37,688 nt of DNA from contig CALMKX010000035.1 of the NCBI GenBank assembly GCA_937867335.1, positions 1 to 37,688 on the forward strand, given 5' to 3'. The notes below the pieces were generated by a model, which was given only the letters and a program-made list of their open reading frames with translations, had not been told where the DNA came from and did not search any database. The DNA comes from an uncultured Acidobacteriota bacterium (GTDB taxonomy: Bacteria > Acidobacteriota > Thermoanaerobaculia > Multivoradales > SZUA-115). Shown piece by piece: positions 1 through 37,212 of the stretch. Positions within the stretch are counted from its first letter, which is position 1. The number at the start of each line of letters is the position of its first letter. The translations under genes and the position numbers were made by a program.

Positions 1-83
1 CCCAGGCGACAGCCGAGCCGGCGGCGCTCGCCCGGCCACCGCTCCCCGCCGAGCCCGAGGCCCGCCTGGAACCCTTCCAGCCG

Positions 84-1193
84 GTGACGGTTTCGGCCCC
101 GGGCAAGCTGATCCTGATGGGCGAACACGCGGTGGTCTACGGGCGCCCCGCCCTGGTAGCGGCGCTCGACCTGCGACTCTCGGCCGAGCTCGCCGCCACC
201 TCCGAACGGGGCGATTGCGAGCTCCTGCTGCCGGCCGTGGGTGTTGCCGAGACGCTGCCCTGGGAAGAAATTCTCCACTACGCCCAGGAGGCCCGCAGGC
301 GTTGGCACGCTTACGCCGAGGAACCCTCGCCCGCGGCCTTCCGTGAAGTGCGAGGCGAGGACCCGGCCCATGTGGTGAAGGTCGCCCTCGGCGAGGCCGC
401 GCTCGAGGCCGGGTTCGAAGCGGGCGGCGAAGCGCCGCCTTCCTTCCGCCTGGAAGTGCGCTCAGAGCTGCCGGTGGGCTCCGGCTTCGGCAGCTCGGCT
501 GCCACCGCCGTGGCCGTTTCGAACGCCCTCCTGGCCTACCTGGGAGTGACGGCCACCAAGGAGAAGCTGCAGCGCCTGGCCCTCGACACCGAGCGCCGCC
601 AGCACGGCCTGCCTTCCGGGGTGGACAGCGCCACGGTGCTCTACGGCTCGCTGATCTGGGCCCGCAAGAGCCTCGAAGGCGGCATGCACGTGGACCCTCT
701 CACCTCCTCCTCGCCCCTGCTCGAGCGTTTGCGGGTGTTCGACACCGGAGCCCCGGCCGAGGCTACCGGCCACGTGGTGGCCTCGGTGCGGGCACGCATG
801 ACGGAGGACCCCCTGCGCTACGAAGACCTCTTCGATCGCATGGAGCGGCTGACCTGGGGCCTGCGCCAGGAACTCGCCCGAACCGACGAGATCCCGCCCA
901 GGATCCTCGCCCTGATCCGCCAGCATCACAGCTGCTTGACCGAGCTGGGAGTGGTGCCACGGGAGGTACAGGAACGGGTGGCGGCGATCGAGGCCGCCGG
1001 CGGCGCGGCCAAGATCTCGGGAGCCGGCTCCCTCGCCGGGCCCGGTGCCGGCTGCTTGCTGGTCTACCACCCGCAGCCGGACGCACTCGAGCAGCAGGGC
1101 CTGCTGACCGGGCTCGCCGCCCTTCCGCTCCGCCTCGGCGCGCCCGGCATGCGCCTCGAGCGCGCCAGCTGGGTGGAGGAACCTCGATCGTGA
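84..1193 (+). CDS. mvk: Mevalonate kinase (GHMP kinase family)
   Basis: ATP-dependent phosphorylation of mevalonate to 5-phosphomevalonate, a cytosolic step of isoprenoid synthesis. The product (369 aa from the GTG at 84) opens with the family motif SAPGKLILMGEHAVVYG. It has the GHMP ATP-binding loop PVGSGFGSSAA at about residues 130-140. GLPSGVDSAT supplies the catalytic Asp (about D181), and the third motif is a stretched KISGAGSLAGPGAG near the C terminus. Length is normal for the family. GTG 84 fits the usual N terminus, but the frame is open all the way to the window edge (27 Ala/Pro-rich codons without a stop), so an upstream start or a fusion cannot be excluded. Its stop overlaps the next start as GTGA, indicating translational coupling with the decarboxylase gene. 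Confidence 0.93.
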   Translation: MTVSAPGKLILMGEHAVVYGRPALVAALDLRLSAELAATSERGDCELLLPAVGVAETLPWEEILHYAQEARRRWHAYAEEPSPAAFREVRGEDPAHVVKVALGEAALEAGFEAGGEAPPSFRLEVRSELPVGSGFGSSAATAVAVSNALLAYLGVTATKEKLQRLALDTERRQHGLPSGVDSATVLYGSLIWARKSLEGGMHVDPLTSSSPLLERLRVFDTGAPAEATGHVVASVRARMTEDPLRYEDLFDRMERLTWGLRQELARTDEIPPRILALIRQHHSCLTELGVVPREVQERVAAIEAAGGAAKISGAGSLAGPGAGCLLVYHPQPDALEQQGLLTGLAALPLRLGAPGMRLERASWVEEPRS

Positions 1194-2218
1194 ACTCGGG
1201 GGCAAGCCCGCGGTCGCTCGGCAAGGCGTCCGTCAAGGCCCCGGCCAACATCGCGTTCATCAAGTACTGGGGCGCTCGCGATCTCGAGCGGGCCCTGCCG
1301 GTGAACGCCTCGATCTCGATGACCCTCTCGGTGTGCCAGAGCCATTCGACGGTGGAGGCCCTGGAGGAACCCGGCAACGACGCCATCTGGTGGGCCGATG
1401 AGTCGGGCAGGCTCGTTCCCGCCGGCGCGGCTTTCACCGGCCGCGCCCTGGCGCACCTCGACCGCCTGCGCCGGGCGACGGGCTTCGCCGGCTCCTTCCG
1501 CGTGGCCACGCGCAACAGCTTCCCCGCCTCGGCGGGTATCGCCTCGTCGGCTTCGGGTTTCGCCGCTCTCACACTTGCGGTCGTCGAGAGCCTGGGGCTC
1601 GAGCCCTCGCCGGCCGAGCTTTCCCGGCTGGCCCGGGCGAGCGGCTCGGCGTCGGCGGCACGGTCGGTCCTGGGCGGCTACGTGGAGCTCCCGGCCGGCC
1701 TGAGCGAGGAGGCGGCCACGGCCCGCTGCCTGGCCCCGGCGCAGCACTGGCCGCTCGCGGACGTCATCGTGCTGGTGGATGACGGACCGAAGGATGTCTC
1801 CTCCCTCGAAGGCCATCGGCGAGCCCTCACCAGCCCCTACTTCGAAGCCCGATGCCGCGAGCTCCCCGACCGCCTCGCCGCGGTCCGTGAAGCGATCGCC
1901 GATCGCGACCTCGAGAGCCTCGGGCCTCTGGTCGAGGAAGAGGCGATCGACCTCCACTTGATCGCCATGTCCTCCAAGCCGCCGATCTTCTACTGGCGTC
2001 CGGCCACTCTGGAGGTCCTTGCAGAGATTCGCAGACTGCGTAACGAAGGCATTTCCGTTTGGGCCACGATGGATGCCGGGCCGAATGTCCACGCGCTCTG
2101 TAAACCAGAACAATCTCAGTTGATCGGCTCCCGCCTGCGTCACGCGCAAGGCGTCTCCGGGATCATTTATGACCAGGTGGGTCCCGGCCCCGAGAGCTCA
2201 GTCCCGCCATTATTCTGA
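1190..2218 (+). CDS. mvaD: Diphosphomevalonate/phosphomevalonate decarboxylase family protein
   Basis: ATP-dependent decarboxylation of a phosphorylated mevalonate. The 342-aa protein shows the family landmarks NIAFIKYWGARD, SFPASAGIASSASG (phosphate loop), SGSASAARSVLGG, KDVSSLEGHRRALTSPYF and the catalytic MDAGPNVHAL. The start is the GTG that overlaps the kinase stop. The KYWGK motif of classical diphosphomevalonate decarboxylases reads KYWGA here, and the Met after SSxEG is His. With an isopentenyl phosphate kinase next door and no phosphomevalonate kinase visible, the true substrate may be 5-phosphomevalonate, giving isopentenyl phosphate rather than IPP. Family assignment is firm; substrate choice is inference. 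Confidence 0.9.
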   Translation: MNSGASPRSLGKASVKAPANIAFIKYWGARDLERALPVNASISMTLSVCQSHSTVEALEEPGNDAIWWADESGRLVPAGAAFTGRALAHLDRLRRATGFAGSFRVATRNSFPASAGIASSASGFAALTLAVVESLGLEPSPAELSRLARASGSASAARSVLGGYVELPAGLSEEAATARCLAPAQHWPLADVIVLVDDGPKDVSSLEGHRRALTSPYFEARCRELPDRLAAVREAIADRDLESLGPLVEEEAIDLHLIAMSSKPPIFYWRPATLEVLAEIRRLRNEGISVWATMDAGPNVHALCKPEQSQLIGSRLRHAQGVSGIIYDQVGPGPESSVPPLF

Positions 2219-24274: not shown

Positions 24275-25183
24275 CTAGAGGTCGCAGCGGCGAATGCGCA
24301 TCAAAGCCACCCCGATCGGCGCCGCCAGCCAGAAGGCGAGGGAGCCGGCGAGCCAGAGCCCGGCGCCGAGCGAGCCGTGTGTGAAGCGGAGGAAGGCCAA
24401 CGAGGCGGCGCCGAAGGCGGTGGTGCCCTCCGAGCCGAGCATCACCGCGGTGCGCACCGCATCGACCGGGTTCACCAGCACCGCCACGATCAAGAGCCGC
24501 GAGGCGACGCCTGAACGCAGCATCGAGGCGAGGCCGAGGGCCGCGAGGTCGTAGACGATCACGCTCAAGAACCAGATCACCAGGGCGAGGGCCAGTACCC
24601 GGGTCCGGCTGGATTCGGTGGTGCCGGCGGCGAGCGCCGCGGCCACTCCCAGGAAGAGCGCGGTCAAGAGCCACGAGCCGCCCACCAGGAGCAGGAAGGA
24701 GCCCAGGCCTTCGTCGCCGGCGCGGGTGAAGATCACCACTCCGGCGGCCCCGAAGCCGAGCAGCTGGGCGGCCGCCAGGGCCACGAAGAGGCCGAGCAGC
24801 TGGCCCAGGAGCAGCGTGGGCCGTGCCACCGGCTGCGAGTAGAGAAGCTCGCTGGCGCCCCGCTCGGGCGAGAGGGCGAGGGAGCCCATCACCACCGCGG
24901 CGAGCGGCACCACCAGCAACACCAGCTGCACCAGGGAAGCGGTGGTGCGGGAATAGTCCTGGAAGCCCGTGCCTCCCGAGAGGATATAGCCCGAGGAAGC
25001 CACGGCGAGCGAGAGTGCAGCGAAGGTCACGCCGAAGATCTGCGTCCAGCGGGAGCGCAGCGCGAGCACCAGCTCCTGCCGGGCGCAAAGCAGCAGGGGC
25101 TGGGCCGGGCTCTCGAGATCGCCTCCTCGAGGCCCTTCCTGGGTCGCTGCCAGCGGTTCGGAAATCAGGGCGGATTCGATCAT
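24275..25183 (-). CDS. nosY: NosY, ABC transporter permease for NosZ copper-site maturation
   Basis: Membrane subunit of the NosDFY complex, which supports assembly of the CuZ centre of N2O reductase. The 302-aa product is dominated by about six transmembrane helices, including TQIFGVTFAALSLAVAS, LVQLVLLVVPLAAVVMGSLA, LLLGQLLGLFVALAAAQLLG and a final LAGSLAFWLAAPIGVALMR. The loop ALSPERGASELLYSQPVARP is the family hallmark after helix 2. The start ATG 25183 overlaps the nosL stop as ATGA. It is the last clearly nos-related gene of the operon. Confidence 0.9.
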   Translation of the reverse strand: MIESALISEPLAATQEGPRGGDLESPAQPLLLCARQELVLALRSRWTQIFGVTFAALSLAVASSGYILSGGTGFQDYSRTTASLVQLVLLVVPLAAVVMGSLALSPERGASELLYSQPVARPTLLLGQLLGLFVALAAAQLLGFGAAGVVIFTRAGDEGLGSFLLLVGGSWLLTALFLGVAAALAAGTTESSRTRVLALALVIWFLSVIVYDLAALGLASMLRSGVASRLLIVAVLVNPVDAVRTAVMLGSEGTTAFGAASLAFLRFTHGSLGAGLWLAGSLAFWLAAPIGVALMRIRRCDL

Positions 25184-25632
25184 GGCTTGCCTCCCGGAGG
25201 GCCCGCTGGCGGGAACACCTCCCGCGGCTCGAGGGCGGGCAGGCCGGCGGCGGCGGGGTCCGCCTGGCGGGCAGCCGCATCGGCGTGGGCGATCAGGTGC
25301 GAGCCCATAGGCGTGGCCAGGCTCGGCGCCCGCGTGTAGATGGCCTTCGAGGCCAGCACCCACTGGCCGCTCCGATGGTCGGCGACATAGGCCACCCAGC
25401 CCTCCCCGGCGGCCTTGCCTTCCGCCAGGTAGGCAGCCAGACAGCCGACGTCGTCGAAGAACAGGGGCTCCTCGCCGGGAGCCACCAGCTGGGCGGCGAA
25501 ATGCACATCGGAAACCGCCATCCGGCAATGCCGGCAGCTCTCGTGCCGGGTGTCGAGTGGGGCCGGGCCCGGCACTCCCCCGCCGCCACAGGCGACCCAG
25601 AGCGCAGCCAGGAGCACGCTCGCACGGCTCAT
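25180..25632 (-). CDS. nosL: NosL, copper chaperone lipoprotein
   Basis: Delivers Cu(I) to the N2O reductase maturation machinery at the outer face of the membrane. The 150-aa precursor has a short signal peptide with a lipobox ending VAC-GGGG. The Cu-binding motif CRHCRMAVSDVHFAAQL (C-x2-C-x-M) follows, then LFFDDVGCLAAYL and the conserved GSHLIAHAD tail region. Its Pro-rich C terminus is variable in the family. The start ATG overlaps the nosF stop (ATGA), and its own stop overlaps nosY, so F, L and Y are translated as a block. Confidence 0.92.
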   Translation of the reverse strand: MSRASVLLAALWVACGGGGVPGPAPLDTRHESCRHCRMAVSDVHFAAQLVAPGEEPLFFDDVGCLAAYLAEGKAAGEGWVAYVADHRSGQWVLASKAIYTRAPSLATPMGSHLIAHADAAARQADPAAAGLPALEPREVFPPAGPPGGKP

Positions 25633-26531
25633 CGCGCAGCCTCCACCAGCTCGCGGTAGAGGCCGTCGAGGCGGCCTTCCTCGGTGGTGAGGCCGAGGAT
25701 CTCGGCGCCTGCGCGCTCGAGCAAGGCGAGCACTTTCGGACGGTCCGCGGCATGGCCGGGGATCACCAGCTGAGCCCCCTGCCAGTCGGCACGAGGGGCG
25801 AGCTTGCGGACCTCCTCGAGCAGCGGGCCGGGCTCGGCGCTGTGCAGCCGAACCCGCAGCACACCGCGCTCGGCCAGGCGATCCGCGAGCTCGGCCTGGG
25901 TGAGCAGGGCGACCAGGCGCCCCCCCACCAGCACGGCGAAGCGGTCGGCCAGGCGTTCGACGTCCCCCAGCTGGTGCGAGGTGAAGCACACCGTGCGGCC
26001 ACTCTCGCGCCGGCGTTCGATCTCGCCGTAGAAGGCCGAGAGGCCGTCCGGATCGAGCGCCGCCGTGGGTTCATCGAGGAGCAGGATCGGCGCTTCTGGC
26101 AGCAAGGCCACGGCCAGCCCCAGCCGCTGGGTCATGCCTCCCGAGTAGGTTCTCACCGCGCGGGCTCCGGCGCCATTCAAGGAGGCGAAGCGCAGCACTT
26201 CCTCCACCCGGCCGCTCCGGACGCCGCGCAGCCGGCGGTAGAACTCCAGCACTTCGCGCCCCGAGAGGCCGTCCGGGAAGGCCACGCGCTGAGGGAGATA
26301 GGAGAGGCATCGCCGCGCCTCGGGCCGTCCGGCCGGCAGGCCGGCGCTGCCCACCGTCACCTGGCCAGAGGTGGGAGCCAGGAGGCCGGCCGCGCTCTTG
26401 AGCGCTGTGGTCTTGCCCGAGCCGTTGGGGCCGAGCAGAGCGAGCACTTCTCCCGGCTCCACGGCCAGGTTCAGGCCGTCGACGGCGGTCAGGGTACCGA
26501 AGCGCTTGGTCAGGTCCAGATAGCGAATCAC
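25629..26531 (-). CDS. nosF: NosF, ABC transporter ATPase
   Basis: Cytosolic ATPase of the NosDFY complex. The 300-aa product shows Walker A GPNGSGKTTALKS (about residues 34-46), ABC signature YSGGMTQRLGLA and Walker B ILLLDEPTAALD, followed by the switch His in FTSHQLGD. The roughly 80 residues after the nucleotide-binding domain are the usual NosF/CcmA-like extension. The start is a GTG that overlaps the nosD stop (GTGA) and has AGGAGG 6 nt upstream. Confidence 0.93.
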   Translation of the reverse strand: MIRYLDLTKRFGTLTAVDGLNLAVEPGEVLALLGPNGSGKTTALKSAAGLLAPTSGQVTVGSAGLPAGRPEARRCLSYLPQRVAFPDGLSGREVLEFYRRLRGVRSGRVEEVLRFASLNGAGARAVRTYSGGMTQRLGLAVALLPEAPILLLDEPTAALDPDGLSAFYGEIERRRESGRTVCFTSHQLGDVERLADRFAVLVGGRLVALLTQAELADRLAERGVLRVRLHSAEPGPLLEEVRKLAPRADWQGAQLVIPGHAADRPKVLALLERAGAEILGLTTEEGRLDGLYRELVEAAR

Positions 26532-27913
26532 CACGGCCTCCTGCCGGCCCAGAAGGCCAGACACCCGAGAGCCACCGCCCCGAGCGAACCCGCCATGCCG
26601 GCGCCATCGACCCGCCCGGGCCCAGCGGCTGCCGAAGCGCGCCAGCTTGCGGGCGGACGGGCGAGAGGAGAGGGGTCCACCACGGCGACCGGATCGAGCA
26701 CCGGAAAGGCCTGCTCCGCCGCGGCGAGGGCCGTCGCGGCCGGGCTCAGGGCCATCAGATCGGCCGCGGTGAGATTGCCGCGGAAGTGGTCGAACACACT
26801 CGACAGGCGGTAGGGCCGATCCGAACGGCCGTCGCCGTCGAGATCCGGCTCCAGATTGTCGGACCAGTAGTTGCCCTCGAAGCGAGTATCCGTTCGTTTG
26901 CCCACCAGCGAGAGCGGCGAGAGATTGGCGATGAAGGTGTTTCCCACCAGCTGATTGTCGCCGCACGAGTCGTAGAGCACCACGGCGATGTCCGAGTCGG
27001 CGATCAGATTGTCGCGGAAAATGTTGCGATAGGAACCTTCCAGGAAGATGCCGCGGGCGTTATCCACGATCACATTGGCTTCCGCTACCAGCTCGTCGCA
27101 AGCCTTCAGCAGCAGCCCCACGGAGGCGAAGCCGCGGTTGTGAAGGAAGCGGTTGTGATGGAAGACCAGCCGCTTCGAATACATCAAGGCGGTGCCGGCG
27201 TCGCAGTTTTCGAACAGATTGTCCTCGAACACGTTGTCGTCCGAGAACATGTAGTGCAAACCGTAGCGCAGGTTGCGGGCCTCGTTGCCGCGCACCAGGC
27301 CGTGATCGGAGGACTGGATATAGAAGCCGTCCCGGGCCTCGGTCACCACGTTGCGCTCGAGACGGAAGCGGTGGGTATTCCAGACATGGATCCCAGAGCC
27401 CTTCTCGCCCGGGTCCCTGCCGGGGATGCCGACCACCTCGCAGCCTTCGACCACGGAATCGTCGGCTTCACGCAGGTAGATTCCGAAGAGCGAACCACGG
27501 ATCCGGACGTCCCGCACGGTCACGCCGTGGGCCGCGACGTGGACTCCCGAAGGGTCCCGGCCGAGATCGCCGCCGGCCCGGCCGTCGATGTCGAAGCCTT
27601 GAACGGTCACGCCGGCCGCCCTCACGCGCACCACGCTACCCTCGCCGGAGCCGAGCAGCAGGGGGCGGCCGCGCCCCACCAGGGTCACGGGCCGATCGAG
27701 GACGAGGTCGCCGCGGTAGAGCCCGGCGGGTACTTCCACGGTGGCGCCGGGAGCCGCGGCGTCGACCCGGGCCTGGAGCTCGGAGACCGCCTCGCCGACC
27801 GGTCGGCCTTCGAGCTGCCCCGAGGCCGGCACCCCATCCGATGGGACGGCCGGAGCGGCCCCGCCGGAAGCGGCCCAGATCAGGAGCGACAGCATTCCGG
27901 CTTCGGCGGTCAC
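26528..27913 (-). CDS. nosD: NosD, periplasmic copper-processing beta-helix protein
   Basis: Periplasmic partner of NosFY that inserts copper and sulfide into NosZ. The 461-aa product has a short signal peptide (residues 1-20, ending GGAAPA). A long right-handed beta-helix follows, of CASH/NosD repeats such as GSGIHVWNTHRFRLERNVVT and GFYIQSSDHGLVRGNEARNL. The conserved FEGNYWSDN then DLDGDGRSDRPYRL marks NosD. A C-terminal hydrophobic segment (about residues 440-457) could anchor it in the membrane. The GTG start overlaps the nosB stop (GTGA); ATG 27895 is the only alternative. Confidence 0.92.
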   Translation of the reverse strand: MTAEAGMLSLLIWAASGGAAPAVPSDGVPASGQLEGRPVGEAVSELQARVDAAAPGATVEVPAGLYRGDLVLDRPVTLVGRGRPLLLGSGEGSVVRVRAAGVTVQGFDIDGRAGGDLGRDPSGVHVAAHGVTVRDVRIRGSLFGIYLREADDSVVEGCEVVGIPGRDPGEKGSGIHVWNTHRFRLERNVVTEARDGFYIQSSDHGLVRGNEARNLRYGLHYMFSDDNVFEDNLFENCDAGTALMYSKRLVFHHNRFLHNRGFASVGLLLKACDELVAEANVIVDNARGIFLEGSYRNIFRDNLIADSDIAVVLYDSCGDNQLVGNTFIANLSPLSLVGKRTDTRFEGNYWSDNLEPDLDGDGRSDRPYRLSSVFDHFRGNLTAADLMALSPAATALAAAEQAFPVLDPVAVVDPSPLARPPASWRASAAAGPGRVDGAGMAGSLGAVALGCLAFWAGRRPW

Positions 27914-28548
27914 GACAGCTCCGGGGCGGGCTTGCGGCTGCCCCTCCACGCCAGCACCAGGGCCACCACCAGCAGCAGGGCCATCAAGCCCAACACGTAG
28001 GAAGCAGGGCCGGGAGTCGAGGTCACCTCGAAGTTGGCGAGCTGGCGACGCCCGAGCATCGGCGGCATGAAGGGCTGCACTTTCACCGCCGCCGTGGGCG
28101 CGAGATCGTGCCCGTAACGGTACAGCTTGTAGCCGAAAGACCACAGCGAAAACAGGCTGAAGTAAAGAAAGAGCACCACCATGTCGAGCACGTGGCCGAG
28201 CTCTCCGTGCACCGCGGCTCGCAGAAAGAGCAGGGCGAGCGCGCCGAGCACGAAGGGGATCCACTTGAACTCGGTGAAGTCCGCCGAGACGAGGTCGTGC
28301 ATGCCGATGTAGTGATTGAGGACGTTGATCTCGTGCACGTCCTGCCCGCCGTTGCCGCCGTCGAGCTTGTAGCTGTAGATGTGGAGCCGCAGGCCCTGAG
28401 GGTACTGCGGCGCGAACATGGTCATATTCCAGAGTGGAAAGAGATAGGTCACGAATACCAACAGAGCGGCCGCCACCAGAAAGGCCCGCGGCAGCATGCC
28501 GGCCGGCGTCTCGAGCCGTCGCGCCAGGGATTGGGAAGCTGTTTTCAT
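27910..28548 (-). CDS. nosB: NosB-like membrane protein of clade II nos clusters
   Basis: Integral membrane protein of 212 aa in the position (between nosZ and nosD) where clade II N2O reductase clusters carry nosB, whose function is not established. Four helices are visible: about 20-40, 95-115, 118-138 and 183-203. The loop between helices 1 and 2 is rich in His and Met (WNMTMFAPQYPQG, HEINVLNHYIGMHDL), suggesting metal or heme contact outside the membrane. ATG 28548 lies 6 nt after GGAGGAGG; ATG 28554 is too close to that site. The name rests on position, topology and my recollection of the family. Confidence 0.75.
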   Translation of the reverse strand: MKTASQSLARRLETPAGMLPRAFLVAAALLVFVTYLFPLWNMTMFAPQYPQGLRLHIYSYKLDGGNGGQDVHEINVLNHYIGMHDLVSADFTEFKWIPFVLGALALLFLRAAVHGELGHVLDMVVLFLYFSLFSLWSFGYKLYRYGHDLAPTAAVKVQPFMPPMLGRRQLANFEVTSTPGPASYVLGLMALLLVVALVLAWRGSRKPAPELS

Positions 28549-28607
28549 GCTCATCCTCCTCCCGGGCGGAGCGGCGCAGGGCACCGCTCCGCCGTCCGGC
28601 CAGCGCC

Positions 28608-30470
28608 CTAGCGGACGTTGACGATCAGATAACCCTGCATCTCCTGGTGGAGTGCCGAGCAGAAGTTGGTGCAGTAGTAGGGGAACACGCCTTCCTTGTC
28701 GGCCTTGAAGGTGAAGGTCTTGGTCTCGCCCGGGTCCACCACCACGTTGATGTTGTAGTCGAGCAGGCCGAAGCCGTGGAGCTCATCGGTGGTCTGCTCG
28801 ATGTTGGTGATCGCCACGGTCACGGTGTCGCCCTTCTGCACGTTGATCGAAGTCGGCCAGAGGGTGGAACGAACCGCCACCACCTTGGCGATCACCTTGT
28901 CGCCCTGGCGCGTGACGCCGGCGTCCTTGACGTCCCACACGGCCAGCGGATGGTGATTCTCTTCCTTGGGATAGACCTCGATCGGGTGCAGCTTGTCTGC
29001 CTTGATCATCTGCGCGTAGTGCGGCTCGGGCTCGGTGAAGGCGTCGTAGAGCAGCTTCATCTTCTCCTCGCTGATGTCCACCAGCTGGGAGGATTCCGGC
29101 TGCGACGGGCCCACCGAGAGGTGCCGGCCGTGCGAGAGCTTGTTGAGGCCCACGAGGTACTTGCCGTCCGGGCTCACGGTGTCGCCTTCGGCCGCGGAGA
29201 GGTGGCCGATCGAGTACGACATCGGCACCTTGTCCACCACTTCCCAGGTCCCCAGCTTCCACTTGGCGATGGCGCTGTCCACGAAGAGCGAGGTGTAGGC
29301 GTAGCCGTCCGGGCCGAACTGGGTGTGCAAGGGGCCCAGGCCCACCGGCACCTCGGCGTCCTTGATCGACTCGTAGCGGAGCACCGGGATGCCGTCCTCG
29401 TCGCCGGAGAAGTCCTTGTTGCGGATGGCGGTCTGGATCTTCTCGAAGTTGAACACCGTGGTCACACCCTGGAGCTTGCCGGAGCCCACGATGTACTTGC
29501 CGTCCGGCGAGACGTCGACGCCATGGGGCGACTTGCCGCAGGGCATCAGGTAGACCATGTCGGGCACCTTCTTGGGGTCGAGCACTTTGACGCCGCCGAT
29601 TGTGTCGCCGAGGCCGTCGGCGATCGCCTTCTCCGCTTTGTGCCAATCCACCGCCGCGATGTAGTCGCGATCCCGCTGGGCCGAGGTGACCTCGAGCTGG
29701 CCGGTGGCCCGCTCGCTGTTGTAGGAGGTCCAGAACATCCAGCCGTCGGAAGCGAGCTTGCCGGCGTCGCCGAGGTCGTAGTTGAAGGGCGGCATCAAGA
29801 TCTCCCAGCCGAGGGACATCTCACCGCTCGTGGGGTTGATCTTCACCGCCACCACCACGCCCTTGTAGCGGCTGGCGTAGTCCTCCACCGGCGCCACGGT
29901 GCCCTTGGGGATGGGGATCGAGAAGCGCGTGGCCATCATCGAGTACTCGGTGTTGGGAGTCACGAAGGCCGAGCCATGGTTGCCGGAAACGTTCGGAATC
30001 GGCCCGAGGATCTGGCGGGTCTTGAAGTCTCGCAGGTCTACCCGCGCCACCCGGCCGTTCATGTCGTTGACGAACAGCCAGCGGCCGTCGTAGTCGCCCT
30101 TGGTCTCGGACAGGGACGGGTGGTGCACGTCGCCCCAGGTGAGGCCGCCCAGCATCTTCCGGGTGTCGTCGTCGAAGCCGTAGCCGGTCGCCGGATAGGG
30201 CGTGTAGACCGGAATGGTCGCCAGGTGGCGCATCGAGGGCACGCCGTAGACGTAGACATTGCCCGAGTGCCCCCCGGAGGCGAAGAGGTAGTACTCGTCG
30301 AGATCTCCTGGGGCAACGTAGGTCTTCTGGGCCGCCAACGCGATATCCGAGACCGCGGCGGGACGGTTGGCCCCGTGCGGCGCGCTCGGGGCGCAGCTCC
30401 AGGCGATGACGCCGGGAACCAGCACCAGGGCCAGCGCCCAGAGGAGCAGGGTCTTGGTATGGCTTTTCAT
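28608..30470 (-). CDS. nosZ: Nitrous oxide reductase NosZ, Sec-type (clade II), possible lipoprotein
   Basis: Reduces N2O to N2 with electrons from cytochrome c, in the periplasm. The 620-aa product is a seven-bladed propeller followed by a cupredoxin. The seven CuZ His ligands are H116 and H117 (GDVHHPSL), H165 (SGNHGSAF), H316 (GKSPHGVDV), H382 (GPLHTQF), H423 (IGHLSA) and H484 (EPEPHYAQ). The CuA ligands are H565 (ELHGFG), C600, C604, H608 and M611 in CTNFCSALHQEM. The N terminus has no twin-arginine: it is a Sec peptide, the clade II hallmark. It ends IAWSC, so Cys26 could be lipidated. GGGAGGG lies 7 nt before the ATG. Confidence 0.97.
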   Translation of the reverse strand: MKSHTKTLLLWALALVLVPGVIAWSCAPSAPHGANRPAAVSDIALAAQKTYVAPGDLDEYYLFASGGHSGNVYVYGVPSMRHLATIPVYTPYPATGYGFDDDTRKMLGGLTWGDVHHPSLSETKGDYDGRWLFVNDMNGRVARVDLRDFKTRQILGPIPNVSGNHGSAFVTPNTEYSMMATRFSIPIPKGTVAPVEDYASRYKGVVVAVKINPTSGEMSLGWEILMPPFNYDLGDAGKLASDGWMFWTSYNSERATGQLEVTSAQRDRDYIAAVDWHKAEKAIADGLGDTIGGVKVLDPKKVPDMVYLMPCGKSPHGVDVSPDGKYIVGSGKLQGVTTVFNFEKIQTAIRNKDFSGDEDGIPVLRYESIKDAEVPVGLGPLHTQFGPDGYAYTSLFVDSAIAKWKLGTWEVVDKVPMSYSIGHLSAAEGDTVSPDGKYLVGLNKLSHGRHLSVGPSQPESSQLVDISEEKMKLLYDAFTEPEPHYAQMIKADKLHPIEVYPKEENHHPLAVWDVKDAGVTRQGDKVIAKVVAVRSTLWPTSINVQKGDTVTVAITNIEQTTDELHGFGLLDYNINVVVDPGETKTFTFKADKEGVFPYYCTNFCSALHQEMQGYLIVNVR

Positions 30471-30495
30471 GGTAATACCCTCCCGGGGCGGCGGC

Positions 30496-31734
30496 TCAAT
30501 GGCCGGCCCCCCCTTGGTTTGCTGGAGCTGCTCCCTCCTGCTTCTGGCGCTGGTACTCGCGGAAAGCCTCGCGCAGCTTCTCCACGGCCACGGCCTTCTG
30601 CTCGGGAGTCAGAATGATCTGGCGCGAGAGCACCACGGACATCGTGCCGGTGGGTTCGCGCAGGAAATCGTCGACAGTGCGACCGAAGCGGCGTTGCACG
30701 TCTTCCACGGCGGTCGAGAGGTCCGGGCCAATCTGCGCCGGGCTCTTGACCCCCAGCGCCTGGATCGAGTGGCAGACGAAGCAGCCGGTCTTGACGAACC
30801 AGGCCCCCGGGCCGCTCTCGAGGCCCCGCTCCTGCTCGGCCTCGGCCACGGTGCGGGAGTCGGTGCGCGGAGCGCCGGCGAGGTAGGCCGCCGGCAGCTC
30901 CTCGCGGCGCCAGGAGAGAATCAGCATCGCCAGGGCCTGGGCCTCGCGGGTGGTCAGGTGGAAGTTGGGCATCACGGTGTCTTCCACCAGGGCGCGCGGG
31001 TCCTTCAAGTGGGCGACGTGCCAGGCGAAGGCCGTTTTCTGGCCGGAAAGGCGGCTGTAGTCGTACTGCTCCGGCGCCTTGTCGCCCACGGTGGTGAGGT
31101 CCGGGCCGATGGTGCCGCCGCGGCCGTTGATCACATGGCAGGCCCGGCAGCCCTTCTCCGCTACCAACTTCTTGGCCAGGTTGATCTCGTCCATCCCCGG
31201 TGTTTCGCGGTCGTAGCGGTGGCAGTGGTTGCAGTTCATCTCGACCAGAGCGCTCTTCTTGGCGGCCAGCGAATAGGCCTCGCCCAGGCTCGCCGAGAGC
31301 AACGGCTCCTCCCAGTGAGCCACCTGGCCGTGAGCGGCGTCCGAGTCGATCGCCCAGCCCTGGCCACCGTGGCAGCTGGTGCAGCCGAACTTCTCCACCG
31401 GGTGGTTCTTGAGCGGCACCGCCGGATGGGTGCGCCAGGGCTCTTCGGCGCTTTCGAAGCCCTTCCAGGCGGTCGCCTGGTGGCAGGTGATGCAGCGGTC
31501 GGCGCGGCCGAGGTCGGCGATCCAGTGCTGCTGGATCCCGGCAGGCACCTGGCTGGCCTTCTCGGCGCCGTACTTCTCGGCCACCAGTTGGCGGAACTGG
31601 TACTGGTAGTAGCGCCAGTCGTGCTGGCGGTCGCTCCAGGCGAACAGCGCGGTGCCGATCACCAGGAGCAAGCCCACCAGGGCCAGGATGGGCCGATCCC
31701 GGTGGGGGAAGGGAGAGTTCGTCCGTTTTTCCAC
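30496..31734 (-). CDS. Membrane-anchored pentaheme cytochrome c
   Basis: Electron carrier, probably subunit of the Rieske/cytochrome b complex and donor to NosZ. The 412-aa product has one N-terminal helix (about residues 15-33) and five CXXCH sites: CITCH (81), CTSCH (118), CNHCH (168), CRACH (196) and CFVCH (318). The first four lie close together as a multiheme module; the last sits in a mono-heme c domain with GPDLSTAVEDVQRRF. An additional Met and several free His could be distal ligands. The GTG start is one base after the cytochrome b stop, with GGAGG upstream. This exact five-heme layout is not one I can name. Confidence 0.9.
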   Translation of the reverse strand: MEKRTNSPFPHRDRPILALVGLLLVIGTALFAWSDRQHDWRYYQYQFRQLVAEKYGAEKASQVPAGIQQHWIADLGRADRCITCHQATAWKGFESAEEPWRTHPAVPLKNHPVEKFGCTSCHGGQGWAIDSDAAHGQVAHWEEPLLSASLGEAYSLAAKKSALVEMNCNHCHRYDRETPGMDEINLAKKLVAEKGCRACHVINGRGGTIGPDLTTVGDKAPEQYDYSRLSGQKTAFAWHVAHLKDPRALVEDTVMPNFHLTTREAQALAMLILSWRREELPAAYLAGAPRTDSRTVAEAEQERGLESGPGAWFVKTGCFVCHSIQALGVKSPAQIGPDLSTAVEDVQRRFGRTVDDFLREPTGTMSVVLSRQIILTPEQKAVAVEKLREAFREYQRQKQEGAAPANQGGAGH

Positions 31735-31735
31735 G

Positions 31736-33088
31736 TCAGATCCTCCCGGGGATCTCGGGCCAGGTCTCCCAGGGCCAGAAGAACTGCCAGTAGGGGCCGC
31801 GGCAGAAGGTGCCGATCACGGTGAGCAGCAGAATGCCCAGGCAGATCGCCAGGAACACCGCGTTCTGGGTGCGCCGGCTCTTGGGCAGCCACCAGCCGGC
31901 GCTGCCGGCGGGGCTCTTGTCCCACCAGGGCCAGAAGGTGAGCACCAGGATCAGCGCACCGGGCAGCAGCACGCCGCCCAGGAAAGCGCCGTTCACGGTG
32001 AAGGAGCCGATGTGCAGGGTGGTGTCGGTGACGATCTCCTGCAGCCACAGGAAGTACCAGGGGGCCTTGGCCGGGTTGGGCGTCACCAGGGCGTTGGCCG
32101 GCTCCTCGAGAGGCGAGCGGATCAGCACCGCGAGGATGCCCACGAAGGCGAGGGTGCCGAGCACCACGATCGCCGCCCGGCGCACCAGGTCCGGTACGGC
32201 GTTGACGGTCGACTCCGGCTGCTCCACCGAGGTGGCCCGGATGCTGGGGGCGGTGCCTCGGGCGAGGCCGAGGAGGGTGTAGGTCTTGGTCTTCGAGGCC
32301 GACTGCTCGGCCTTCTTCTCGAGATGCCCCTCGCGGTCGGCCCGGGCGAGGCCGCCGTCCTTGCGCACCCGCCACATGTGGTACACGAAGAGCACACCCA
32401 GGAGGCCCGGCAGGGCGATGCAGTGCAGCACGTAGAAGCGGATCAGCGTGGGCTGCTCGATGGTCCGGCCGCCGAGCAGCAGCTCGCGGATCTTCGGCCC
32501 CACCCAGGGGATCGACGAGGCGATATTGGTGCCCACCGTCACCGCCCAGTAGGCCAGCTGGTCCCAGGGCAGGAGGTAACCGGTGAAGGAGAGGAAGAGG
32601 GTGGCGAGCAGCATCACCACGCCCAACAGCCAGTTGATCTCCCGCCGCTGGCCCTGGCCGACGCCGTTCTTGTAGGCCCCGGTCAGGAACACCCGCACCA
32701 TGTGCAGGAACACCACCGCCACCATCAGGTGGGCCGAGAGCCGGTGCACCGAGCGGATCCAGGAGCCGAAGGCCACCACGTATTCGATGTCTTTCACCGA
32801 AGCGTAGGCCCGCTCCACCGAAGGCACGTAGAGGAAGAGCAGGGGCATGCCGGAGAGGATGAGCAGCAGCAGGAGCGCCGCCGAGGCGGTGCCCAGCCAG
32901 AAGGAGTAGCTCCATTCGAGCGAGGCCTTCTGCACCTTCGCCGGGAACCAGTGGAGCAGGAAGTTGGACACCACCGCATCGCCGGCCTGGCGGTCGGAGC
33001 GCGGCGAGAGGCTCCAGAAGCGCCTGGGGTGGACCCCGGGAGCGCTCGGCGAGGCGGGAGCGGAGGGCTTGGACAGAGACTCGGCCAT
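31736..33088 (-). CDS. Cytochrome b (fused b6/subunit IV type) of a Rieske/b complex
   Basis: Membrane quinol-oxidising subunit. The 450-aa product carries the two bis-His heme pairs in helices B and D: VHRLSAH...FLHMVR near residues 115-132 and RFYVLHC...FVYHMWR near 220-240. The Qo-type loop is seen as KAPWYFLWLQE. It ends in further helices including VFLAICLGILLLTVIGTF, so the b6-like and subunit IV-like parts are joined. The start ATG 33088 has GAGGAG 7 nt upstream. It lies between the Rieske and pentaheme genes, which is the standard complex III order plus a cytochrome c. Confidence 0.92.
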   Translation of the reverse strand: MAESLSKPSAPASPSAPGVHPRRFWSLSPRSDRQAGDAVVSNFLLHWFPAKVQKASLEWSYSFWLGTASAALLLLLILSGMPLLFLYVPSVERAYASVKDIEYVVAFGSWIRSVHRLSAHLMVAVVFLHMVRVFLTGAYKNGVGQGQRREINWLLGVVMLLATLFLSFTGYLLPWDQLAYWAVTVGTNIASSIPWVGPKIRELLLGGRTIEQPTLIRFYVLHCIALPGLLGVLFVYHMWRVRKDGGLARADREGHLEKKAEQSASKTKTYTLLGLARGTAPSIRATSVEQPESTVNAVPDLVRRAAIVVLGTLAFVGILAVLIRSPLEEPANALVTPNPAKAPWYFLWLQEIVTDTTLHIGSFTVNGAFLGGVLLPGALILVLTFWPWWDKSPAGSAGWWLPKSRRTQNAVFLAICLGILLLTVIGTFCRGPYWQFFWPWETWPEIPGRI

Positions 33089-33099
33089 GGCGCGGCTCC

Positions 33100-33606
33100 T
33101 CAGGTCAAGGTCAGGCGGAAGTCGCGGCCCACGGGTGAGGCCAGGTCCGCAACCAACTGGCCGTCGTCCGCCGAAACCGAGAGCTCGAACCAGGTGAGCG
33201 GCTTGGGCGCCGGGCCGGCCACGTTGGTGCCGTCGCCGGTGTAGCGGGAGCCGTGGCAGGGGCAGAGGAAGCGGTGGGTTAGCCGCAGCTGCTTGCCGCC
33301 CACGGTCTGCTCCTCCGGCCGCGACAGCGCCTCGGCGCGCACGGTGCAGCCCAGGTGCGTGCACACCGCCGAGATCGCATGGAAGGTGTTGCCCTCGCGG
33401 AACACGAACAGCCGCTGATCGGGCAGGAATTTGAGGCCGTCCGGGAACTCGGTCGGGGGGCCGAGCTTCACCGTGGTGGGCGCGTCGTAGGAGACGTTCG
33501 GCACCAGCGAGCGCAGGGAGGCCACGGTCTGGCCGGCCAGGGCCGCCACTCCGGCGGTGGTTCCCAGCTTGATCAAGAAGTCGCGACGGTTGCTCGACTC
33601 ACTCAT
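33100..33606 (-). CDS. Rieske iron-sulfur protein
   Basis: [2Fe-2S] subunit that receives electrons from quinol and passes them to cytochrome c. The 168-aa product has an N-terminal twin-arginine-type signal/anchor (NRRDFLIKLGTTAGVAALAG). Cluster ligands are CTHLGC and CPCHGSRY. It ends with a GPAPKPLTWFEL segment, typical of bc-type Rieske proteins. The ATG overlaps the stop of the upstream flavoprotein gene (ATGA), tying the flavoprotein to the complex. Eleven nt separate it from cytochrome b. Confidence 0.95.
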   Translation of the reverse strand: MSESSNRRDFLIKLGTTAGVAALAGQTVASLRSLVPNVSYDAPTTVKLGPPTEFPDGLKFLPDQRLFVFREGNTFHAISAVCTHLGCTVRAEALSRPEEQTVGGKQLRLTHRFLCPCHGSRYTGDGTNVAGPAPKPLTWFELSVSADDGQLVADLASPVGRDFRLTLT

Positions 33607-35573
33607 GGTTTCTCCTCAAACGGGCCCGCCTCGGGGCGTACCACCCAACTCTCGACGATCGAGAAGCGCTCCATGGTCATGGCATCGGTCGGGCAGCGCA
33701 GGGCGCAGAGGCCGCAGCGGATGCAGCGCTCGTCGTCCTTGAGCATGGCGGCGAGCGGCAGGCCGTCGGCCTCGGCTCGCTCCTCGAGGGCCGCTCGCTC
33801 CTCGGCGCCGAGCTCGAGCTCGGCGAGCGGCACCAGGGCCAGGCAGTATTCCGGGCAGATGTCCACGCAGCGCCCGCAGAGCACGCAGGCCTCCGGGTCG
33901 TAGATCGTCTGCACATGGCAGAGCAGGCAGCGGGCCGCCTGGCGCCGGGCCTCTTCGGGGTCGTAGCCGGTTTCCACCTCGGCGATGCCGGTACGCCGGC
34001 CCACATCGAGGGTGGGCGGGGCTTCGCGGTCGAAGATCTCGAAGCCGGCGATCATCCGGTAGCGGTCGGTGGGCAGCTTCTCCACCTCGAGCTCGGCCAC
34101 TCGCAGCGCCCGCTCCTGCGACAGGCGCTCGTGGATCGAGCGCGCCGCCCGCTTGCCATTGGCGATCGCCTCGATCAGATTGCGAGGCCCGAACGCCACG
34201 TCGCCGCCGGCGTAGATCCCCGGGGCTGAGGTGGCGAGGGTCGTGGGGTCCACCCGGATGGTGCCGGCCGGGCTGAGCTCGACGCCGTCCTCGGGCTTCA
34301 AGAAGGAGAGGTCCGGCCGCTGGCCGATCGCCAGGATGCAGGAGTCGGCGTCCAGGGTGATGAGGTCCGCATCGTCGTAGCTGGGAGCGAAGCGCCCGGA
34401 GGCGTCGAACACCGAGGTGACGCCCCGCAGCACCACGCGGGAGAGGTGGCGCTCGCCCTCGAAACGGGCCGGGCCGCGACGGGTGAGGAAGGCCACGCCT
34501 TCGCGCCGGGCCTCCACCAGCTCCTCGTGGCCCTGGGTGGTGGCGAGCACCGGCATTTCCTCGAAGGTCTCGAGCGAGACGATGGTCACCTCGGACGCGC
34601 CGCCCCGCAGCGCGGCCCGGGCGGAATCGAACGCCTCTTTCAAGCGGGCGTCGGTCTCCTCGGCGAGCTCGCTCATCAGCTCTTCCTTGCCCAGGCGCAG
34701 CGCCGTCCGCGCGGCGTCGAAGGCCACGAAACCGCCGCCGATCACCACCACCCGCCGGCCGAGGTCCATGCGGAAGCCGCGGTTGACGTTGAGCAGAAAG
34801 TCGACCGCCTTGACCACCCCGTCGAGCTCCACGCCCGGCACCGCGAGGTCCCGGCCCTTGCTCACGCCTACCGAGAGGAACACCGCCTCGAAGCCGGCAG
34901 CGCGAAGCTCGGCGAGGCCGAAGCCCGGGGACAAGGGGCTGCCGAGGCGCAGCTCCACGCCGAGGGCGAGGATCTTGTCCACCTCGGCGCGGATCAGGGT
35001 GCGGGGCAAGCGGTACTCGGGGATGCCGAAGCGCATCATGCCGCCCGGCTCGTCGGCCGCCTCGAAGACGGTCACCGAGTAGCCCAGGAGGGCGAGGTCG
35101 TGAGCCGCTGCCAGGCCCGACGGGCCGGCGCCTACCACCGCCACCTTGTGCCCCACCCCCGGCTGCGCGGCCTGCAGCACCACGGAAGCAGGGTCGTCGG
35201 GTGCGCGCAGGGGGAAGTGGCCGAGGTAGCGGTTGCCCTCGCTCAAGCCCTCGCGGCGCAGGCGATCCTGGGTCTGGGGGCGCACCGACTCCACCCCGAA
35301 ACCCTCGCAGACGTGCCGCTTGAGCGCCCGGATCGACACCGGGGCGTCGATCGCGCCGCGACGGCAGGCATCTTCACAGGGGGCGGCGCAGACTCGGCCG
35401 CACACCGAGGCGAAGGGGTTGGGGGCCCGGGCCACCAGGAAGGCCTCTTCCTCGCGGCCCTCGGCGATCAGCTGCACGTAGCGACCGGCATCGGTGGCCA
35501 CCGGGCAGCCGGTCTGGCACTTCACTTGTGCCTTCCAGTGCTCGAGATCGGGGAGCCGAACCGGGATGCTCAT
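33603..35573 (-). CDS. GltD-like FAD/[4Fe-4S] NAD(P) oxidoreductase heading the nos/bc operon
   Basis: Soluble flavo-iron-sulfur protein of 656 aa without a signal peptide, so cytosolic. Its N-terminal Fe-S domain has C19, C23, C58, C62, C66 and C70 (CQTGCPVATD; CGRVCAAPCEDAC). An FAD Rossmann loop follows (VAVVGAGPSGLAAAHDLALLG, about residue 145), then an NAD(P) loop VVVIGGGFVAFDAARTALRLG at about 276. The C-terminal ferredoxin part is CVLCGRCVDICPEYC and CIRCGLCALRCPTDA. It resembles GltD/NfnB-like subunits. FAD-containing NAD(P) oxidoreductase subunits are known in Kuenenia Rieske/b complexes, and operon position suggests the same here. ATG 35573 lacks a clear ribosome site. CLLCH near residue 520 is probably a chance heme-like match. 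Confidence 0.88.
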   Translation of the reverse strand: MSIPVRLPDLEHWKAQVKCQTGCPVATDAGRYVQLIAEGREEEAFLVARAPNPFASVCGRVCAAPCEDACRRGAIDAPVSIRALKRHVCEGFGVESVRPQTQDRLRREGLSEGNRYLGHFPLRAPDDPASVVLQAAQPGVGHKVAVVGAGPSGLAAAHDLALLGYSVTVFEAADEPGGMMRFGIPEYRLPRTLIRAEVDKILALGVELRLGSPLSPGFGLAELRAAGFEAVFLSVGVSKGRDLAVPGVELDGVVKAVDFLLNVNRGFRMDLGRRVVVIGGGFVAFDAARTALRLGKEELMSELAEETDARLKEAFDSARAALRGGASEVTIVSLETFEEMPVLATTQGHEELVEARREGVAFLTRRGPARFEGERHLSRVVLRGVTSVFDASGRFAPSYDDADLITLDADSCILAIGQRPDLSFLKPEDGVELSPAGTIRVDPTTLATSAPGIYAGGDVAFGPRNLIEAIANGKRAARSIHERLSQERALRVAELEVEKLPTDRYRMIAGFEIFDREAPPTLDVGRRTGIAEVETGYDPEEARRQAARCLLCHVQTIYDPEACVLCGRCVDICPEYCLALVPLAELELGAEERAALEERAEADGLPLAAMLKDDERCIRCGLCALRCPTDAMTMERFSIVESWVVRPEAGPFEEKP

Positions 35574-35608: not shown

Positions 35609-35626
35609 ATATGACCGGGGTCATAT
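35609..35626. promoter_or_regulatory. FNR/CRP-type palindrome 1 upstream of the nos operon
   Basis: ATATGAC-CGGG-GTCATAT, 7-bp arms with a 4-bp spacer, 36 bp upstream of the flavoprotein start. Spacing matches the N4 boxes of FNR-family regulators (TTGAT-N4-ATCAA); the half-site differs. Confidence 0.75.
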
Positions 35627-35680: not shown

Positions 35681-35698
35681 ATATGACGAGCGTCATGT
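35681..35698. promoter_or_regulatory. FNR/CRP-type palindrome 2 in the divergent region
   Basis: ATATGAC-GAGC-GTCATGT. It has the same arms as palindrome 1 with one mismatch, centre to centre 72 bp away. It lies 67 bp upstream of the divergent hemerythrin gene. Confidence 0.7.
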
Positions 35699-35765: not shown

Positions 35766-36479
35766 ATGGTGCCCACGCCTGCCAAGACCCTGGTTTGCCG
35801 CCGGCTCCCTGCCGGCGAGCTCCGAGCCGCGCTGCTCTCGGCCTTCGACGGCCTGGGCCTGCAGGAGACCCTGCTCCTCTTGAGCGACCAACCCCATGCC
35901 CCGGTGCTGCGGCTGCTGCAGACCGAGAGACCCGGCGCTTTCGAGTGGTCGCCCCTTGCCACCGGCCCTCCCGAGTGGCAGACGGAGGTCACCCGGCGGG
36001 CGGCTGCGCGTGCCCTCCGGGAGCTCACCGAAGCCCTGTCCTGGGACCACGACCGCCTCGACGAGCTCTGGCGAGCAGCGATCGCCGCCCGTAGCGCGGG
36101 CGATTCGGCACTCGCCCAGCGCGCCTTCGAGCGCTTCGCCCATGGCTTCAAGCGACATCTGCGCTTCGAGGAAGCATTGCTCTTCCCCGAGTTCGAGCGC
36201 CTCGCCGGCAGCTCGGTGGAAGAGGGGCTCACCGGCGAGCTGAGGGCCGAGCATCGCGCGCTCGAGCGTTGCCTGGCGGCCCTCGCAAGGGGCCTCAGCG
36301 CTCTCGGGGCGGATCTCGGGCCGGTGCAGAGCGAGTTCCAGGAGCTGCTGGCGGAGCACCACGCCCGGGAGGAACGCGTCCTCCTGCCCGCCACCGATCG
36401 CCTGCTCGCGGCGGACGAACGGGACGAGCTGGTGCGGCGCATCCAGGCCTTCGAGGAGGACTCTCCGAACCCGGGTTGA
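35766..36479 (+). CDS. DUF2249-hemerythrin HHE domain fusion protein
   Basis: Probable cytosolic O2/NO-binding di-iron protein. The 237-aa product begins with a DUF2249 domain (about residues 10-75; LSDQPHAPVLRLLQTERPGAFEW is its core). A four-helix hemerythrin HHE domain follows (about 85-230). Likely iron ligands are H95 (WDHDRL), H126/H131 and E135 (HGFKRHLRFEEALLF), H163 (AEHRAL), and H198/H199 with E203 (EHHAREERVLL). Such proteins are common around denitrification genes and may handle NO or repair Fe-S clusters. GGAGGT lies 5 nt before ATG 35766. It is divergent from the nos operon and shares its twin palindromes. Confidence 0.87.
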   Translation: MVPTPAKTLVCRRLPAGELRAALLSAFDGLGLQETLLLLSDQPHAPVLRLLQTERPGAFEWSPLATGPPEWQTEVTRRAAARALRELTEALSWDHDRLDELWRAAIAARSAGDSALAQRAFERFAHGFKRHLRFEEALLFPEFERLAGSSVEEGLTGELRAEHRALERCLAALARGLSALGADLGPVQSEFQELLAEHHAREERVLLPATDRLLAADERDELVRRIQAFEEDSPNPG

Positions 36480-36522: not shown

Positions 36523-37212
36523 GTGTCCGCCCCCCTGCAGTGGATCCTCCGTACCAATCCGCTCTACCGCCGCCTTTCGGACGAGGACCGCCAGCGCCTG
36601 GCCGAAGTGGCCACCCTGCGCACCTACCCCCGCGGCAGCGCGATCTTCTCGGAGGGGGACGCTTCCGAGCTGCTTTACACCATCGCCGACGGACGGGTGA
36701 AGCTGGTGAAGATGCTGCCCGGGGGCAAAGACGTAATCCTCGAGATCCTCGGGCCCGGGGACCCTCTGGGCGCGGTCGCCGTCTACGAGCAGCGGCCCTA
36801 CCCGGCTTCGGCCGAGGCCCTCGAGCCCACCACCTGCATCGCCCTCCAGCGCCGGGCCTTCTTCACCCTGCTCGAGACCTGCCCGTCGCTGGTGCGGGGC
36901 CTCTTGGTGGGCCTCAACCTGCGGCTGATCGAGCTCACCCAGCGCATTGCCGAGGTCTCCGGCGGCCGGGTGGAAACCCGCTTCGCCCTGCTCTTCCTGA
37001 AGCTCGCCCAGCGCCTGGGCGAGGTGCGCCCCGAGGGGACCTTCATCCCCCTGGCGCTCTCCCGGCAAGACCTGGCCGACTTGACCGGCACCACCATCGA
37101 GACCGCCATCCGCCAGATGAGCCGATGGGCCAAGGAGGGGCTGGTGGTTACCGAAAAGGACGGCTTCCTGCTCACGGACCTCGCCCTGCTCGAACGGCTG
37201 GCCTCCGCCTGA
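36523..37212 (+). CDS. CRP/FNR-family transcription regulator
   Basis: Predicted regulator of the adjacent nos genes. The 229-aa product has a cyclic-nucleotide-type beta-roll (about residues 12-125; IFSEGDASELLYTIADGRVK), a long dimerisation helix and a winged HTH. In the recognition helix TIETAIRQM the FNR pattern ExxSR reads E193-xx-I196-R197. There are only two Cys (105, 120), so no FNR-like Fe-S cluster is expected; a heme- or NO-sensing DNR/NnrR-like role would fit. It lies 43 bp after the hemerythrin gene, perhaps with its own promoter. Its targets are inferred from the two TGAC-N4-GTCA palindromes upstream. Confidence 0.92.
   Translation: MSAPLQWILRTNPLYRRLSDEDRQRLAEVATLRTYPRGSAIFSEGDASELLYTIADGRVKLVKMLPGGKDVILEILGPGDPLGAVAVYEQRPYPASAEALEPTTCIALQRRAFFTLLETCPSLVRGLLVGLNLRLIELTQRIAEVSGGRVETRFALLFLKLAQRLGEVRPEGTFIPLALSRQDLADLTGTTIETAIRQMSRWAKEGLVVTEKDGFLLTDLALLERLASA

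Follow-up and report, generated by a model that had tools for sequence, protein, structure and literature searches.

A conserved nitrous oxide respiration operon with its own Rieske/cytochrome b module and a predicted NAD-linked flavoprotein

A ten-gene operon for the respiration of nitrous oxide (N2O) encodes, ahead of its clade II nitrous oxide reductase (NosZ), a Rieske/cytochrome b module and an iron-sulfur flavoprotein that probably binds nicotinamide adenine dinucleotide (NAD). It lies in an uncultured Acidobacteriota bacterium on contig C35 (CALMKX010000035.1) of assembly GCA_937867335.1, which holds 5.56 Mb in 391 contigs and is 97% complete. The stretch analysed, 37,688 nucleotides long, is called the window, and coordinates refer to it unless another locus is named. 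The flavoprotein gene is an integral part of the nos operon. Judged by gene content and conserved residues, the products of the operon probably form a dedicated NAD(H)-coupled quinol:NosZ electron-transfer complex, a reading that we favour for the complex as a whole and for either direction of electron flow. The genes, all on the minus strand and running from 35573 to 24275, are as follows.

33603..35573, minus strand: flavoprotein, predicted to be cytosolic and NAD-linked, with iron-sulfur clusters; Fer4_20, Pyr_redox_2 and a C-terminal 2x[4Fe-4S] part; best NCBIfam match PRK12771, below cut-off
33100..33606, minus strand: Rieske [2Fe-2S] protein; twin-arginine-type N-terminus, CTHLGC and CPCHGS motifs, Tyr two residues past the Ser
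31736..33088, minus strand: cytochrome b, a fusion of the b6 part and the subunit-IV part; ATG start at 33088, APWY for PEWY, no heme-cN cysteine
30496..31734, minus strand: pentaheme cytochrome c (c5), membrane-anchored; five CxxCH motifs
28608..30470, minus strand: NosZ, clade II (Sec-dependent) nitrous oxide reductase; TIGR04246 at 897.9 bits (cut-off 625), His and CuA motifs
27910..28584, minus strand: NosB, polytopic membrane protein; alternative start at 28554; assigned by position and by conservation in related loci
26528..27895, minus strand: NosD, periplasmic copper-insertion protein; ATG at 27895, PF05048, TIGR04247 at 388 bits (cut-off 300)
25629..26534, minus strand: NosF, ATP-binding cassette (ABC) ATPase; GTG start at 26534 or 26531, PF00005
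25180..25632, minus strand: NosL, copper chaperone lipoprotein; PF05573
24275..25183, minus strand: NosY, ABC membrane subunit; PF12679

The flavoprotein and Rieske genes overlap by 4 bases. Gaps of 11, 1 and 25 bases separate the Rieske gene from cytochrome b, cytochrome b from c5, and c5 from NosZ, and the genes for NosF, NosL and NosY overlap one another. An earlier note on this DNA had described ten genes in one direction with overlaps or short gaps, the first of them GltD/NfnB-like and overlapping the Rieske gene; coordinates, order, overlap and the similarity to GltD models all bear this out. The combination of a Sec-dependent NosZ with NosB and NosD-F-Y(-L) is that of a clade II nos cluster, with NosB, which had no Pfam or NCBIfam match, recognised as given in its line above.

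To gauge the reach of the arrangement, six aligned flavoprotein sequences were used as the query against 84,980 species genomes, and the best 80 loci were kept. These loci were picked by their flavoprotein and hence do not measure how often such NosZ occur without one; some of them (L066, L085, L090 and L132) come from genomes that are also among the relatives considered below. nosZ lies downstream of the flavoprotein gene in 62 of the 80. Fifteen of the other 18 loci end too early, three of these showing the start of nosZ, and three (L139, L143 and L145) have room for nosZ and lack it; no NosZ match was found in the genomes of those three. In L139 (12517-18520) the module without nosZ lies beside a NarJ-like chaperone gene, and in L143 (1152-12657) beside a molybdoenzyme/4Fe-4S/NrfD set, with similar genes in L145. 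The earlier note had named absence of the flavoprotein from related operons as one finding that would count against it; nosZ is present in 58 of the 61 loci with enough downstream DNA.

Gene order is equally constant. The genes found keep the same order on a single strand in every one of the 62 nos-linked loci, all ten being present in 41, and this recurrence excludes a chance arrangement. The record titles of the loci name Acidobacteriota classes, Anaeromyxobacter, other Myxococcota, Ignavibacteria, Chlorobi, Bacteroidota, Kryptonia, Calditrichota, Zixibacteria and Latescibacterota, together with one Planctomycetales and one Acidimicrobiia. Ten genomes around the Planctomycetales-labelled locus were treated as non-anammox because the two inspected carry nos operons. 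Cultured carriers of the operon include Anaeromyxobacter strains PSR-1, soli SG29 and terrae SG22. A scan of viral contigs returned no relatives of the flavoprotein.

The flavoprotein and its NosZ have largely been inherited together. NosZ occurs in 22 of 99 relatives, and five genomes, the window's included, have a NosZ more than 60% identical; all five carry the flavoprotein directly upstream. The other NosZ among the relatives (39-51% identical) adjoin neither flavoprotein nor Rieske/b genes, save for one Rieske match several kilobases off in L155. In a NosZ tree, 57 of 59 flavoprotein-linked sequences form one clade (Shimodaira-Hasegawa-like approximate likelihood ratio test, SH-aLRT, 98), apart from 16 flavoprotein-less NosZ. 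The two outside it, from Ignavibacteria (L125, 7056-18144, and L128, 10001-20183), belong to a deep and different NosZ lineage, 44% identical, and their flavoproteins fall within the nos-linked flavoprotein clade beside those of Kryptonia. The likeliest reading of the two trees is that NosZ was exchanged inside the operon while the module was retained, which would argue for functional coupling rather than hitch-hiking.

The module is also found in other company. More distant flavoprotein-Rieske-b-c modules occur without nos, and relatives of the GltD/NfnB-like module adjoin genes for nitrate-reductase-like enzymes, other molybdoenzymes and, probably, cbb3 oxidases. This suggests one respiratory module that may be reused with different terminal reductases. 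The placing of the flavoprotein in the nos operon by the earlier note is supported; the GltD/NfnB-like module at large is not tied to N2O.

The flavoprotein combines a Fer4_20 domain, a flavin adenine dinucleotide (FAD)/NAD(P) two-dinucleotide domain and a C-terminal, ferredoxin-like pair of [4Fe-4S] motifs, and its best NCBIfam matches, PRK12771 and GltA/GltD-like models, all fall below cut-off. Seventeen cysteines are invariant in all 62 nos-linked homologues, enough, we infer, for about four [4Fe-4S] clusters. The RCLxC segment that forms the N-terminal start of GltD and NfnL sits after the flavin domain here (Cys549 and Cys552); with this placement eight cysteines could hold two GltD-type clusters and eight others two ferredoxin-type clusters. 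The predicted structure (predicted local distance difference test 85, predicted template modelling score 0.86) is nearest to the GltD-like subunits of NfnABC/StnABC (Z 34.5-35.5), followed by GltD, NfnL and dihydropyrimidine dehydrogenase; against 9bov_A the fit has Z 35.5 and a root-mean-square deviation of 3.1 over 462 residues. No membrane segment or export signal is predicted in the protein.

One substitution bears on the nucleotide. After the second strand of the nucleotide domain, five aligned solved relatives read Tyr-Arg-Arg and the nos-linked flavoproteins read Leu-Glu. The glutamate, Glu335, is invariant in all 62 nos-linked flavoproteins at the place where relatives linked to NAD phosphate (NADP), NfnL and GltD, have Arg-Arg. 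In Rossmann folds, a glutamate in place of Arg-Arg points to NAD over NADP. Glu335 therefore makes NAD, not NADP, the probable nucleotide. The pyridine nucleotide link proposed in the earlier note is thereby kept and refined: a GltD/NfnB-like NAD(P) flavoprotein, probably linked to NAD and carrying an additional C-terminal 2x[4Fe-4S] part.

The membrane core is conserved as well. Cytochrome b unites its N- and C-terminal domains within one chain, and its heme-ligand histidines 127/141 and 234/249 (numbered in a translation begun at 33124) are invariant in 59 of 59 cytochromes b, with b6f-like spacings of 14 and 15. APWY stands in place of the PEWY motif, and all 59 nos-linked sequences have Trp or Tyr where the heme-cN cysteine would be. 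In the Rieske protein the Ser after CPCHG is present in 65 of 65 sequences, and the residue two further on is Tyr in 45 and Phe in 20; the Ser and Tyr have been tied to high potential (PMC12954380). c5 has one N-terminal hydrophobic segment, and its five CxxCH motifs recur in every nos-linked locus where the gene was found. The heme-cN cysteine is kept in flavoprotein-less split b6-type cytochromes of relatives (L198, L200, L201, L203, L204, L206-L208, L210 and L212) and absent from flavoprotein-linked ones.

The host genome encodes further cytochromes b, one with the canonical PEWF on contig C223 and one with APWY beside cbb3-like oxidase genes on contig C5. The latter contig carries a second Rieske/b/multiheme-c module beside the oxidase genes, and at the end of this module stands the N-terminal part of a further GltD-like flavoprotein (L179, 1143-1544). 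The remainder of such a flavoprotein lies on contig C69 (L040, 4682-6412). The second flavoprotein may be a paralogue that is split by the assembly or broken.

Parts of this system have precedents. Clade II NosZ was reportedly found to be fed from a Rieske/b complex in a 2017 study; we know of no NAD-linked flavoprotein in that system, and its electron module, NosGC1C2H, is absent from the ten-gene operon. The clade II nos clusters of Anaeromyxobacter are known to hold Rieske and cytochrome b genes. Such genes are also drawn in the clade II nos clusters of cultured nosZII strains, which share NosZ, NosB-D-F-L-Y, Rieske, cytochrome b and cytochrome c with the operon, and the labels of that figure (Fe-S, Rieske, cyt-b, cyt-c) name no flavoprotein or NAD link (PMC13122619). 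The GltD-like fold and iron-sulfur arrangement of the flavoprotein are shared with the NfnABC/StnABC and NfnAB transhydrogenases (9bov, 9n5u, 8oh5, 5jca; Z 28-35). In these enzymes the Leu-Glu motif is YRR, and NfnAB and NfnABC have an NfnA/NuoF-like partner; the nos operon lacks one, and the partner would instead be the Rieske/b complex.

The closest likeness in architecture is to the gene clusters Kuste4569-4574 and Kustd1480-1485 of the anammox bacterium Kuenenia stuttgartiensis (PMC12954380), and the comparison with Kuenenia Rieske/b complexes made in the earlier note is apt in this respect. Both systems hold a Rieske protein, a b6-type cytochrome b, a multiheme cytochrome c and a GltD-like FAD/Fe-S NAD(P) oxidoreductase subunit in one gene cluster. 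The Kuenenia complexes are proposed to bifurcate electrons from quinol, sending some of them to NAD(P)+; their Rieske centres have measured potentials of +303 and +335 mV, models place four Fe-S clusters between heme and FAD, and an interface heme was also proposed (PMC12954380). Quinol oxidation coupled to both a high-potential acceptor and NAD(P) would be common to the two, in each as a proposal. The systems also differ. In Kuenenia, subunit IV stands apart from a four-helix cytochrome b that carries heme cN, whereas the nos operon encodes a fused single chain without the cN cysteine; the Kuenenia cytochromes c have six or eight hemes and c5 has five; and in the nos operon the likely nucleotide is NAD and the acceptor would be N2O via NosZ. 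No account of a nos operon with an NAD-linked flavoprotein was found in open-licence papers, and earlier mention in subscription papers, for example the original clade II surveys, is possible. Within the open-licence literature, then, Rieske/b in clade II nos clusters and NAD(P)-linked Rieske/b as an anammox proposal are the known parts, and their union with NosZ in one conserved operon is new and widespread.

We infer complex formation, the electron path and the NAD preference, and on this footing the following scheme can be proposed. Menaquinol would be oxidised at the outer quinol site of the b6-like cytochrome b/Rieske core. The high-potential electron would pass from the Rieske centre through the membrane-anchored pentaheme c to periplasmic NosZ, which NosB-D-F-L-Y would mature. 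On the cytoplasmic side, the flavoprotein, with FAD and about four [4Fe-4S] clusters, would pass low-potential electrons between cytochrome b and NAD(H). The net reaction thought most likely is quinol bifurcation as proposed for Kuenenia, one electron going down to N2O and one up to NAD+, so that each pair of quinols would send two electrons to N2O and lift two to NAD+. By our arithmetic, with menaquinol at about -70 mV and NAD at -320 mV, the energy needed to raise the second electron would be covered by a Rieske potential exceeding about +180 mV, and N2O would be an ample sink for the first. If the complex exists, bifurcating NAD+ reduction is our guess at its direction, one that could readily prove wrong.

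Several observations weigh against this proposal. The hosts, such as Acidobacteriota, are mostly presumed to be heterotrophs with complex I, in which a shortage of NADH is not expected and NADH production meets no obvious need. The Kuenenia models have a heme-cN cysteine that is missing from this cytochrome b, and the binding of the flavoprotein to cytochrome b is predicted from gene content and conservation. As to its generality among the nos clusters of relatives, other clade II clusters of the same order lack the flavoprotein. An N-terminal histidine of cytochrome b, a candidate ligand of a Kuenenia-like interface heme, was considered as support for the flavoprotein link and set aside: although invariant here, it is shared by Rieske/b complexes of relatives that have no flavoprotein.

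The same chain of cofactors could run the other way. The flavoprotein would then oxidise NADH and feed an inner-side heme or quinone site, making the whole an NADH:NosZ oxidoreductase with a Q loop that bypasses complex I. This direction is downhill, agrees with the predicted NAD(H) preference and would suit organotrophs as a direct sink from NADH to N2O, but complex I, present in this genome (NuoF at 614 bits), would conserve more energy. The same energy-conservation argument was used against the NADH-driven direction in Kuenenia (PMC12954380). NADH-driven N2O reduction is the main rival and a serious one, though we consider it doubtful as an account of the operon; granted the complex, the reverse direction is likewise a guess, and a doubtful one.

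Exchange with ferredoxin or another cytosolic carrier, pyridine nucleotide being just one partner, would give a role to the C-terminal 2x[4Fe-4S] part and recall the bifurcating NfnABC/StnABC transhydrogenases whose subunits are the nearest solved folds; with intact dinucleotide sites, the invariant Glu at the NAD position and no NfnA/NuoF-type partner subunit in the operon, it is improbable. Flavoproteins of the NosR/NosX type are thought to serve NosZ maturation or reactivation in clade I. A similar task here, the supply of low-potential electrons for CuZ, would explain why the flavoprotein is always encoded with nos in its clade, bar three exceptions. However, the flavoprotein-Rieske-b-c module also stands without nosZ beside other reductase genes, so that the primary partner of the flavoprotein would be the Rieske/b complex, and the cytosolic location predicted above fits poorly; we hold this role to be very improbable. 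That the protein is a glutamate synthase small subunit and a neighbour of nos by chance, as its similarity to GltD models might suggest, is scarcely credible, given 62 conserved nos operons, the missing Arg-Arg motif, scores far below the GltD equivalog cut-offs, and a gltB search that matched in all 14 controls and found in this 97%-complete genome two stretches of about 30-36 positions and no full-length gene. Service in glutamate synthesis with a gltB partner was the second finding that the earlier note had named as counting against it, and this outcome did not occur either.

The region upstream of the operon holds candidate regulatory elements.

35610..35625, no strand assigned: palindrome TATGACCCCGGTCATA, a putative Crp/Fnr site directly ahead of the flavoprotein gene
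35682..35697, no strand assigned: second copy of the palindrome, with one mismatch; putative regulator site
35769..36479, plus strand: hemerythrin-domain protein, divergent; PF01814 at 61 bits, start inferred
36523..37212, plus strand: Crp/Fnr-family regulator; PF00027 and PF13545; candidate regulator of the operon

With up to one mismatch allowed, TATGACN4GTCATA has two sites in the whole 5.56 Mb genome, both in this divergent promoter region upstream of the flavoprotein gene. Of 67 loci, 22 have the core TGACN4GTCA ahead of the flavoprotein gene, whereas its frequency in these same loci predicts 0.7. A dedicated, nitrogen-oxide-responsive regulator of the operon is a reasonable guess. Elsewhere in the genome, NirK gave no match above cut-off and NirS a single weak one (32 bits). 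At the other end of the window (3-2218), tandem GHMP kinase and diphosphomevalonate decarboxylase-like genes of this Acidobacteriota genome recall isoprenoid synthesis of the mevalonate type.

The route by which clade II NosZ receives its electrons has been established for few organisms, and the preferred reading, an NAD(H)-coupled quinol:NosZ complex, suggests that the removal of a greenhouse gas may be wired directly to the NADH pool of the cell. If, in a large clade that spans several phyla, NosZ is coupled directly to NAD(H) by a Rieske/b complex of its own, energy yield, electron donors and competitiveness would differ from those of textbook denitrifiers. The anammox bifurcation proposal would also gain a counterpart in cultured bacteria such as Anaeromyxobacter. 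A bolder extension, which we put forward tentatively and with some doubt, is that N2O respiration in these lineages is quinol-based bifurcation, and that a modular NAD-linked Rieske/b engine has been reused across phyla with N2O, nitrate and other reductases. Were bifurcation to hold, N2O reduction would yield NADH in addition to proton-motive force.

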